DNA from: Chloroflexota bacterium
GTDB lineage: Bacteria > Chloroflexota > DTOL01 > JACQYG01
Assembly (NCBI GenBank): GCA_016208345.1
Contig: JACQYG010000117.1
Coordinates: 1 to 16,529 of the forward strand
Direction: 5' to 3'
Length of the DNA stretch: 16,529 nt
Within the stretch, counting starts at the first letter, position 1, and every line of letters starts with the position of its first letter. The notes beneath the pieces were generated by a model that saw only the letters and a program-made list of their open reading frames with translations, had not been told where the DNA came from and ran no database searches. The position numbers were made by a program, and so were the translations under genes. Below are positions 3,208 to 11,290 of this stretch, piece after piece.

Positions 3208-3477
3208 TGGTCGTGCACCCTCTTTTGACCCAGACCTCCCAGCTTGCCGTCGTCAGCCAGCTCCGACCAGGCAGCCCTGCGGCACCCAGAAGGAGATGCT
3301 GACCGTTGCTTTCTTCCGAACCTGGCGGGGTTGGGCATGCTTCTGCCGCGCAGGACCCAATCTTCAATGCCGCTTGACGGCAGCAGTCCTGACAGGCCCG
3401 ACCGGGAGAGGGAATTCGACCCCGCTATAGCGGGTTGCGGGTACAGGGCACCGCTAGCTCCCCATCTAGCACGACCA
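3208..3477 (-). ncRNA. ffs: Signal recognition particle RNA, large bacterial type (6S/scRNA)
   Basis: This is the RNA scaffold of the signal recognition particle; it binds Ffh and targets nascent membrane and secreted proteins. On the minus strand the 5' Alu-domain block (gtgctagatggggagctagc, then ggtgccctgtacccgcaa) closely follows the Bacillus-type scRNA. The Ffh-binding hairpin is present with its symmetric loop and GGAA tetraloop (caggttcggaagaaagca around 3324-3307), followed by gtgccgcagggctgcctggt. The ends pair with each other: tggtcgtgc near 3477 with gcacgacca ending at 3208. The length, about 270, is normal for the large class with an Alu domain, found in Gram-positive and some other phyla. 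The 5' end is inferred from a near-consensus promoter directly upstream; the 3' end is inferred from the terminal helix. Confidence 0.93.
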
Positions 3478-7141: not shown

Positions 7142-7184
7142 CTCTCCTGATGTCCCGGAGTTCAACTCCGGGACATCAGGAGAG
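7142..7184. repeat. Palindromic element A, copy 1 (intergenic)
   Basis: A near-perfect palindrome with 21-base arms around a single C at 7163. Its inner part, cctgatgtcccggagtt and its complement, recurs as copy 2 at 8577-8613; over 35 bases the two copies differ only at the two central positions. This copy is in the gap between the gamma-carbonic-anhydrase gene and the CBS-domain gene, about 50 bases upstream of the CBS gene's -35 box. No U-run follows, so it does not look like a simple terminator. Confidence 0.9.
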
Positions 7185-8081: not shown

Positions 8082-8110
8082 TCGGGACGGCAGTTGAACT
8101 GCCGTCCCGA
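8082..8110. repeat. Palindromic element B with 14-base arms
   Basis: tcgggacggcagtt (8082-8095), a central G, then its exact complement (8097-8110). Near-identical direct repeats flank it: gacaagattt at 8072-8081 and gacaaggttt at 8109-8118, nine of ten equal. The centre (agttgaact) and the cgggac/gtcccg blocks recall element A, arranged in the opposite order. Function unknown; no U-run. Confidence 0.8.
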
Positions 8111-8120
8111 CAAGGTTTAA

Positions 8121-8227
8121 CCACTAAGCCATGAAGGCACGAAGGATGTAGACAGAAGCCAGGTTTCTCGGAGAAGCCTGGCTTCTGGGGTAGTCCTTTA
8201 ATCTTCGCGTCTTTGTTTCGTGGTAGG
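8121..8227. repeat. Interspersed hairpin repeat C, copy 1
   Basis: About 107 bases matching copy 2 at 11181-11290. Left flank (taagcca..gaaggcacgaaggatgtaga) and right flank (ggggtagtcctttaat, cttcgcgtctttg) are shared, and the two outer ends are partly inverted copies of each other. Between them is a hairpin core (8154-8186, 15 pairs with one wobble, loop cgg). The core sequence differs from that of copy 2, although both begin and end with a ccag/ctgg pair. It is probably a non-autonomous repeat; no coding potential seen. Confidence 0.8.
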
Positions 8228-8508: not shown

Positions 8509-8553
8509 GGCGTCACCAGGCCCAGCCGGATTTCGCCCCTGGCGAGGAGGGAA

Positions 8554-10110
8554 ATGAGCGATAGGTTCGCCCCCGCCCCTGATGTCCCGGAGTTGCACTC
8601 CGGGACATCAGGGCTGCGGCTGACACTGGAGGTGGGCGCGGTCAGCGACGTGGGCGCGGTGCGCCAGAGCAACGAAGATAGCTACGGCTTGGCCGAGGAC
8701 TATGCCGCCAAGCTCACCTCCGCCCCTCAGGAGCTCCTGGAGCGCAAGGGTCGATTGTACGCCGTGGCCGACGGCATGGGCGGCCACGCCTCCGGGGAGA
8801 TAGCCAGCCGACTGGCCATCGAGCGCACGTTCACCGACTATTATGGCAACCCCACCACCGATGTCCCCTCCGCCCTGCAGGCGGCCATACAACAAGCCAA
8901 CCTGGCCATCATCACCCAGGGCCAGGGCGAAACCGATCTCCTGAAGATGGGCTCCACCATAGTGGCCGGCCTCTTTCGCGCCGACCAGCTCTGGGTGGCC
9001 AACGTGGGTGACAGCCGCGCATACTTGTTTAGGGCGGGGCAGGCCAGACAATTGACCGTGGACCACTCCTGGGTTGCCGAGCAGGTGCAGGAAGGCATTC
9101 TATCTCCCGAGCAGGCCAAGACCCACGCCCTGCGCAACGTCATCACCCGGTCACTGGGCACCCACCCGGAGGTCCAGGTCGACATCTTTCGAGAGACCCT
9201 TCAGCCCGGTGATGAGGTGCTTCTCTGTTGCGACGGCCTGACCGGCGAGCTTCCCGATGAGGACGTCAGCGCCATCGTCGCCATGGGCGGCACCTCTCAG
9301 GAGATCGCCCAGCGGCTGGTGGGCACAGCCAAGGAGCGCGGAGGACGTGACAACATCACTGCCATCTTCATTAAGGCTCAACCGAGCACCGAACCCACCC
9401 CAGCTCCCGCCGCTGACCTGACGCCAGAGACGGAAATTCCGGAGGAGACCGTGCCCTTCGCGGCCATGGTGGCCATCTCGCTCCTGAGCGTTTTCCTGGG
9501 GCTGGCCCTGGTAGGGCTGTGGCTGTTCGCACGAATGACACCGCAACTGCCTCCCATCGCTGCTCAAGCCTCCTTGGCCACGCCTTCTCCCACCGTATCG
9601 TTCACGCCAACCCCGCCCGTCACCGCCACCATCGCCATCTCCGCCTCGGTAACGCCTTCGCCGGTGCCAACCGAGATAACCGCCACCGTCCTGGTTGACG
9701 ACATGAGCCCTGGGTTTCAGAAGGGCGGCCCCGAGGAGTTCTGGGGAGCGGAGCCCAGCGGCTACGGCCAGCACTTCTTCTGGACCAGGAATGCCACCGA
9801 CAAGACCGAGAACTTCGGGAAATGGACGCCCAGCCTCCCCAAACCGGGGAAATATGAGGTGTACGCCTTCATCCCCGAAAAGCTGGCCACCACCTCCAGC
9901 GCGCGTTACCGTATCAATTTCAGCGGACAGTGGAAGGTGGCGGTGATCAATCAAGGCAGAGCACCGCGAGACTCCTGGGTGAGCCTGGGGGTCTACACCT
10001 TTGCCGCCGATGGCAAAGAATACGTGGAGCTCTCGGACGCCACCGGCGAGCCGTACAACTCCGAGTACATCGCCCTTGATGCCGTGAAGTTCGTATACGT
10101 CGGGCCCTGA
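8554..10110 (+). CDS. Membrane PP2C-type Ser/Thr protein phosphatase with extracellular golvesin-like domain
   Basis: A 518-aa metal-dependent phosphatase of the Stp1/PrpC class, which reverses Ser/Thr kinase signalling. The cytoplasmic catalytic domain (about 22-275) keeps the family motifs: SNED (39-42), ADGMGGHASGE (72-82), NVGDSRAY (150-157), the CDG Asp at 227 and RGGRDNIT (262-269). A Pro/Thr-rich stretch leads to one membrane segment (about 301-327) and a second Pro/Thr/Ser-rich linker. The C-terminal domain (about 378-518), with LVDDMSPGF, WTPSLPKPGKYEVYAFIP and DAVKFV, resembles golvesin C-terminal-like domains found in secreted bacterial proteins; it should lie outside the cell. Residues 8-20 are encoded by palindrome A copy 2, an insertion before the usual start of the domain (LRLTLEVGAVSDVG). 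The ATG at 8554 has GAGGAGGG just upstream. No kinase gene is in view. Confidence 0.92.
   Translation: MSDRFAPAPDVPELHSGTSGLRLTLEVGAVSDVGAVRQSNEDSYGLAEDYAAKLTSAPQELLERKGRLYAVADGMGGHASGEIASRLAIERTFTDYYGNPTTDVPSALQAAIQQANLAIITQGQGETDLLKMGSTIVAGLFRADQLWVANVGDSRAYLFRAGQARQLTVDHSWVAEQVQEGILSPEQAKTHALRNVITRSLGTHPEVQVDIFRETLQPGDEVLLCCDGLTGELPDEDVSAIVAMGGTSQEIAQRLVGTAKERGGRDNITAIFIKAQPSTEPTPAPAADLTPETEIPEETVPFAAMVAISLLSVFLGLALVGLWLFARMTPQLPPIAAQASLATPSPTVSFTPTPPVTATIAISASVTPSPVPTEITATVLVDDMSPGFQKGGPEEFWGAEPSGYGQHFFWTRNATDKTENFGKWTPSLPKPGKYEVYAFIPEKLATTSSARYRINFSGQWKVAVINQGRAPRDSWVSLGVYTFAADGKEYVELSDATGEPYNSEYIALDAVKFVYVGP
8577..8613. repeat. Palindromic element A, copy 2 (inside the phosphatase reading frame)
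   Basis: ccctgatgtcccggagt (8577-8593), a three-base loop tgc, then its exact complement (8597-8613). It begins 23 bases after the A of the ATG start codon, keeps the frame open, and encodes the peptide PDVPELHSGTSG. Copy 1 at 7142-7184 matches 33 of 35 central bases. In the mRNA it would form a very stable hairpin just inside the coding region. Confidence 0.92.
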
Positions 10111-11114: not shown

Positions 11115-11180
11115 GTGGCTTTGCCAGGCGGCTCAAGGGGCACAGTTCAACCGGGGGTTAGGGGGCAGACCCGCCTTATC

Positions 11181-11290
11181 AAATAAGCCACGACGACACG
11201 AAGGATGTAGATAGAAACCAGTCCCGACTGGTCGGGACTGGTTTCCGGGGTAGTTCTTTAATGTTCGTGTCTTTGCGTGTTCGCGGTAGG
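11181..11290. repeat. Interspersed hairpin repeat C, copy 2
   Basis: Matches copy 1 (8121-8227) in its flanks: taagcca, cacgaaggatgtaga, ggggtagt, ctttaat, ttcg.gtctttg and a final gcggtagg. The core (11214-11245) is a different perfect hairpin: gaaaccagtcccga pairs with tcgggactggtttc around ctgg. The 311-base stretch 11115-11425 between ytxH and the sigma gene consists mainly of this repeat and the terminator below. Confidence 0.8.

Follow-up and report, generated by a model that had tools for sequence, protein, structure and literature searches.

How does a perfect palindrome come to lie just inside the start of a protein-coding gene without breaking its reading frame? The window analysed here, by which we mean the whole 16,529-nt stretch of Chloroflexota DNA, poses this question with a palindrome near the start of a phosphatase gene. 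The features concerned are as follows:

7142..7184, no strand assigned: family A palindrome between genes, 43 nt, arms of 21 and loop of 1
8544..8551, plus strand: likely ribosome-binding site of the phosphatase gene, GAGGAGGG, judged from the sequence and from a leader conserved in a sister genome
8554..10110, plus strand: Stp1/IreP-type PP2C phosphatase gene with a C-terminal extension, 518 codons (NF033484)
8577..8613, no strand assigned: family A palindrome within the gene, arms of 17 and loop TGC (CCCTGATGTCCCGGAGT-TGC-ACTCCGGGACATCAGGG)

A palindrome lies in frame near the start of a phosphatase gene

The initial annotation placed a palindrome in frame at the N-terminus of the phosphatase, 23 nt inside the gene, and its description was borne out: the 17-bp arms enclose a loop of 3, the ATG at 8554 lies 23 nt upstream of the palindrome at 8577-8613, and the peptide encoded is PDVPELHSGTSG. 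The phosphatase scores 236 bits against the NF033484 profile (cut-off 230). Its ATG at 8554 is a credible start because GAGGAGGG is found at 8544-8551, because the leader is conserved in a sister genome of the same genus (95 of 98 bases), and because the sister protein, P0001, likewise begins MSDRFAPA. Since leader, ATG and likely ribosome-binding site are all conserved in the sister, the palindrome in the phosphatase gene is most likely translated. The 37-nt hairpin alone has a predicted RNA fold of -34.1 kcal/mol, and the predicted fold of the surrounding 121 nt has a z of -4.82, with 0 of 200 shuffles as stable. A mild effect of the putative hairpin on early translation of the phosphatase is possible and physically plausible; the effect on the protein of PDVPELHSGTSG, which stands ahead of the catalytic domain, is most likely close to neutral.

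The palindrome is one copy of a dispersed repeat

A near-identical intergenic copy had been noticed at 7146-7180, and the match holds at 33 of 35 bases (94%); these positions are the core of the 43-nt perfect palindrome at 7142-7184. The core might, as the initial annotation allowed, have been found nowhere else in the genome. When the host genome (2.1 Mb in 366 contigs, 74% complete) was searched, 29 sites emerged, 27 matching a 31-nt core and 29 a 23-nt core with at most 3 mismatches, and control sequences read backwards gave 0 core matches; a chance origin of the copies is excluded. Base counts over the 58 arms of the 29 copies define the unit, which we call family A, as CCTGATGTCCCGGAGTT-N-AACTCCGGGACATCAGG, 35 nt long and with sharp ends. 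Over these 58 arms no base is conserved beyond CCTGATG...CATCAGG, and neither a GTAG nor a CGTC tag borders the stem; because this unpaired tag is absent, we do not classify family A as a tagged REP. In length and copy number family A is REP-like (35 nt, 29 sites, 4 of the 29 inside proteins), and by eye its copies are single, apart from nesting at one locus, rather than arranged as REPINs (two inverted REPs and a spacer). At that locus (L004, G000:C58, about 1500-1620) the nested palindromes are a family A copy, an A-like unit with centre CCCCCGCTTTCGCGGGGG and then, directly, a copy of family B, described below. At another (L011, G000:C192, around 1501-1531) a family A copy marks a fold-back of the contig, with about 115 paired positions and 2 mismatches across the centre. 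Its two arms correspond to a single place in the sister, and the structure may be a genuine inverted duplication or an artefact of assembly.

The sister genome holds 2 core sites, one of them exact, and 59 further genomes of the phylum hold none. An exact scan of GTDB contigs, among which the host's own records may be left out, returned only the sister, a mine-metagenome assembly. Carriage by phage was rejected, with 0 exact matches in a viral collection. When arms of 12 or longer and loops of 5 or shorter were required, 8 palindromes were counted in 175.6 kb of the host and 23 in 292.9 kb of the sister, versus 0 and 1, respectively, in one Markov-shuffled control each, in samples that were partly chosen: the window and two contigs already known to have copies are part of the host set, and the sister set consists of contigs met in earlier searches. 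Judged by the names of close matches, the relatives are Chloroflexota; the sister records (DYIS01; L046 and L047) are labelled Ktedonobacter racemifer, several named close HemW matches are Anaerolineae, and the label may be wrong.

Copies lie inside and at the ends of genes

Four copies are read in frame, as DVPE[LF][NH]SGT, in the phosphatase, in HemW, in an LCP transferase and in an ATPase that resembles SpoIIIAA yet scores far under the cut-off of the SpoIIIAA model. Entry of a small palindrome into genes in frame, apparently without breaking them, is thus seen in four genes, and two of the inserts recur in homologs from other assemblies. In particular, the HemW insert sits mid-protein, straight after DLIYGLPG, and relative to the sister it is a net gain of 14 residues (ten, read by hand, in the ATPase). 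In an alignment of 30 HemW proteins (the query and 29 of 120 listed), the insert is confined to the query and a metagenome protein, P0122, with the same EGY at its right, and 28 of the 30 lack it, including the sister protein P0123 and P0121. The insert displaced QD/QT, residues that the homologs keep, which argues that it was gained. Among 11 aligned LCP proteins the query has the insert in common with P0242, a protein of a different Chloroflexota assembly; the other nine, which are distant and have a variable linker, lack it, and no empty sister site was found for this copy. Matching homologs in other assemblies imply that the HemW and LCP inserts persist, and since they appear to have outlived about 10% protein divergence they can be argued to be tolerated. 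Of the four copies, those in the phosphatase, the LCP protein and the ATPase are placed close to N-termini or within linkers, regions in which an insert is cheaply tolerated. Taken together, mobility and tolerance of family A are well supported, and so is the central part of the initial annotation's reading. The DVPE frame is used by all four counted internal copies; with two of the three frames open the odds of this are 1 in 16, and we do not claim a frame preference.

Other copies reshape the ends of genes. Butyrate kinase has gained a C-terminal tail from a copy, a copy provides the stop codon of a permease-like protein (named by eye), a radical-SAM-like protein with a copy ends in LMSRS, and HisH has an altered tail. 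Excluded from the four genes were L011, where a YchF-like protein has the palindrome in frame at its C-terminus, at the fold-back of the contig, and PriA, YlxR and an epimerase, whose frames cross a palindrome lying before the probable start; another six long frames overlapping copies gave no Pfam match. Two HemW homologs, P0155 and P0234, have in-frame repeats of other kinds close to this loop (a repeated ALRLCSGQ and a PELVEG-like stretch), which may therefore be a site where coding repeats commonly land.

Most sites in the sister genome are without the palindrome

The phosphatase genes of host and sister are identical at 1478 of 1507 aligned bases (98%). Where the host has 36 nt (8578-8613) the sister has 9 nt (GCAGCACAA), a net difference of 9 codons that keeps the frame. 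It had been allowed that all orthologous phosphatases might share the peptide; the closest ortholog, that of the sister, has neither peptide nor palindrome. We looked up 27 of the 29 copies in the sister, the phosphatase copy included and L034 and L043 left out. Seventeen align on both flanks, of which 16 are without a palindrome there and 1 is filled, and the remaining ten have one flank, a weak match or none. The single copy filled in both genomes lies between genes that we take to be atpA and atpG.

At 15 of 18 measured sites the sister carries 3-56 nt of other sequence (median 17) in the place of the palindrome, the flanks of the other three being overlapped or unplaceable, and most sites therefore look like replacements rather than clean additions. 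Chemistry of the IS200/IS605 kind is expected to join cleanly without target loss. Here HemW has lost two residues, and replacement is apparent at these 15 sites, for which the comparison set is just 3 other insertions, too few to serve as a control. The sister phosphatase site is itself a small hairpin (GCCGCAG-CACAA-CTGCGGC), and the sister site of L038 has a terminator-like stem. Over 16 sister sites the mean longest stem is 4.5, versus 3.95 (sd 0.28) in random windows, and the observed mean was attained in 14 of 300 control sets; this is suggestive of small hairpins as preferred targets, which we do not claim.

Related palindromes bracket RAYT transposase genes

Y1 transposase genes are present in both genomes. 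That of the sister is IS200-like and has a TnpB-like frame downstream. In the host, a gene for a RAYT (an HUH single-tyrosine enzyme) at C295 scores 114.5 bits against NF047646 (cut-off 80), a second at C94 scores 75.9 bits, just below that cut-off, and a third at C39 has an internal stop (TGA). The C94 gene is bracketed by AGACTCCCGGAGTTTTGGAAACTCCGGGAGTCT, which includes the family A inner half-arms CCCGGAGTT and AACTCCGGG, and by AGACTCCCGGTGTCTGGCAGACACCGGGAGTCT, a copy of family B, which is dispersed over 8 host and 14 sister sites. Seven sites with GGAGTTGCACTCC or GGAGTTGTACTCC at their centre surround the C295 gene (four precede it and three follow), and GGAGTTGCACTCC is also the centre of the phosphatase copy. 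The dispersed repeat that flanks a RAYT gene is thus family B, at C94, family A sharing just its centre (C295) or inner half-arms (C94). With two RAYT genes bracketed by related palindromes, we read family A as an untagged, perfect-palindrome REP/TIR element. In the sequence examined no family A copy was seen adjoining a RAYT gene, and for that reason we infer, rather than observe, that a RAYT is the enzyme that moves family A, which is likely. A further palindrome family, TTCAGGAGTTNNACTCCTGAA, has 14 host sites and 0 sister sites at the setting used, and forward matches to the centre GGAGTTNNACTCC number 44 in the host, 6 in the sister and 0 in controls.

Three palindromes in G001 (L151, 4561-4593; L161, 168-202; L169, 1959-1996) have common outer arms, ATCCTCCCGC, around different centres, as if the tip of a hairpin had been exchanged. 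One of the three is found, in the sister, close to the position before priA that in the host is occupied by a family A copy (L037/L109).

Family A resembles known repeats and departs from them

The nearest resemblance is to the REP/TIR repeats that go with RAYT or TIRYT proteins. Passages of PMC3733652 (Di Nocera 2013) describe palindromes of 20-40 nt in tens of copies, mostly outside genes and some in frame within conserved ones, as in family A; they also describe in-frame REPs in genes, REPs that are themselves part of palindromes, stop codons provided by repeats, RAYT-type genes with self-complementary repeats on their flanks, and GTAG repeats within small palindromes in the Chloroflexi species T. 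roseum. Compared with the REPs in Table 1 of that paper, family A has arms of 17 bp rather than 5-13 bp and is without a GTAG/CGTC tag or an adjoining RAYT gene. In-frame intragenic REPs are thus already published there, and family A departs from them by lacking the tag and by its long arms. The Group 3 REPs of TnpAREP, in portions of Corneloup 2021 (PMC8266576), share with family A a perfect palindrome and a short loop, and they are found beside an HUH transposase gene; unlike family A they have a GTAG motif, and stems of 5-8 bp in the two models studied.

The initial annotation had likened the palindrome to the Rickettsia palindromic elements, which passages of PMC2229807 present as in-frame palindromic repeats inside conserved proteins, a Rickettsia guanylate kinase with an insert being reported there as active. 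The likeness stands for behaviour (in frame, in four genes) and fails for membership: those elements are 105-146 bp long and belong to Rickettsia, whereas family A is 35 nt long, in Chloroflexota, and nearest in kind to REP/TIR repeats with a RAYT. Coding palindromes in Nematomorpha mitochondria are, like family A, perfect inverted repeats within translated genes; unlike in family A, their arms encode conserved parts of proteins, and no dispersed family is described in the abstract of PMC6649704. Homogenisation of arms by template switching is described, in parts of PMC8604942 and PMC8794818, for yeast genes and RNA genes, whereas family A is a dispersed bacterial repeat. The literature searched, which largely excluded subscription journals, yielded no untagged, long-armed, RAYT-linked palindromes in Chloroflexota.

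The centre base is usually flipped between paired copies

In copies paired by both flanks the arms agree, save for one base in L034, and at the DNA level the centre is flipped in 3 of 4 pairings. The flips are in L172/L177 and in the group L181 and L185 versus L080 and L184, both of family B, and in L008/L034 of family A, a pair within G000 that may reflect strain variation or duplication; the centre is unchanged in the atpA-atpG pairing of family A. These four derive from 16 pairs (7 of family A, 9 of family B). Seven one-sided pairs (L002/L009, L003/L009, L035/L037, L035/L041, L037/L041, L179/L180 and L184/L093; 4 flips, 3 the same) were dropped, and the six pairs among L181, L185, L080 and L184, which share a common longer repeat, were merged into one comparison, in which the centre is the same within the G000 pair and within the G001 pair, and the flip separates the genomes. 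Of 20 locus alignments, two were short and the remaining 18 gave a background divergence of roughly 3-9%. Exchanges of Phe/Leu between HemW and P0122 and of Leu/Phe between the LCP protein and P0242 would fit two more flips, read from protein only, which would bring the count to 5 of 6. Matched arms with a flipped centre are as template switching predicts, sections of PMC8604942 and PMC8794818 giving matched arms and spacer inversion, coding DNA included, as its products. These observations raise the tentative possibility, which we hold to be rather doubtful as a whole, that an untagged palindrome is moved as a hairpin by a RAYT, replaces a short target on entering genes and then flips its centre by template switching, toggling Leu and Phe (TTG/TTC) in the added protein loops with arms unchanged. 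If true, centre flipping would amount to a mobile element bringing its own small mutator into proteins.

Origin of the phosphatase palindrome

We consider it probable (roughly 0.7) that the phosphatase palindrome is a copy of a 35-nt mobile, REP/TIR-like, non-autonomous repeat whose movement would depend on a RAYT. The enzyme would take family A as a single-stranded hairpin and join it elsewhere, insertions that keep the frame would survive as short protein loops, and later arm-to-arm template switching would keep the arms alike and flip the centre base. This reading is supported by the 29 sites versus 2 in the sister, the empty phosphatase site, in-frame residence in four genes and the related palindromes that bracket RAYT genes. 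Counting against it, RAYT adjacency and a tag are not seen, most sites look replaced rather than cleanly entered, one of the four pairings shows no flip, and three of the copies in genes occupy regions in which inserts are easily tolerated.

It is unlikely that the family instead spread mainly by errors of replication (template switching, fold-back copying) without a transposase, its association with RAYT genes being incidental. Flipped centres with matched arms are products of template switching in parts of PMC8604942 and PMC8794818, and symmetric changes in three copies (for example CGATG/CATCG), the replaced target stretches and the fold-back beside L011 all speak for such an origin. Template switching is local, however, and leaves unexplained both how one 35-nt sequence with sharp ends reached 29 unlinked places and why related palindromes bracket two RAYT genes. 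A strong predicted hairpin so near the phosphatase start codon could also suggest an adaptive gain, a regulatory element selected to tune translation; we judge this very unlikely, given that the same element occurs in three unrelated proteins (in HemW midway along the chain) and in many intergenic stretches, so that its presence in the phosphatase needs no cause specific to that gene. Slightly less probable still is that the palindromes are ancestral and were lost in the sister, as the atpA-atpG copy common to both genomes and the small hairpin at the sister phosphatase site might suggest: sixteen independent losses would be required, and 28 of the 30 aligned HemW proteins are without the insert and keep the displaced residues. 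Least probable by our estimate is an assembly artefact, which the 366 contigs, 74% completeness, copies near contig ends and the fold-back at L011 might favour, because the atpA-atpG copy is also in another assembly, the HemW and LCP inserts recur in proteins of other assemblies, and the phosphatase copy is mid-contig with its frame intact.

Filled and empty orthologs of one gene in two close genomes are material with which to measure the cost of a coding palindrome to protein and mRNA. Should the link between family A and RAYT hold, the range of RAYT-linked repeats would come to include perfect palindromes of Chloroflexota that have long arms and no tag, and the centre base would offer a natural readout of template switching in bacteria.

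Other features of the window

One further palindrome lies between the two family A copies:

8082..8110, no strand assigned: palindrome TCGGGACGGCAGTTGAACTGCCGTCCCGA, with the similar centre AGTTGAACT, of a family that is not expanded

With one site in each genome, it was ruled out as a second expanded family. Two copies of a 46-nt direct repeat, at 8117-8162 and 11176-11221, are 83% identical, and each has a palindrome nearby (8082-8110 and 11214-11245, respectively). In an Rfam search of the window the sole match at gathering score was a bacterial large SRP RNA at 3211-3474 on the minus strand (177.7 bits), away from the palindrome.
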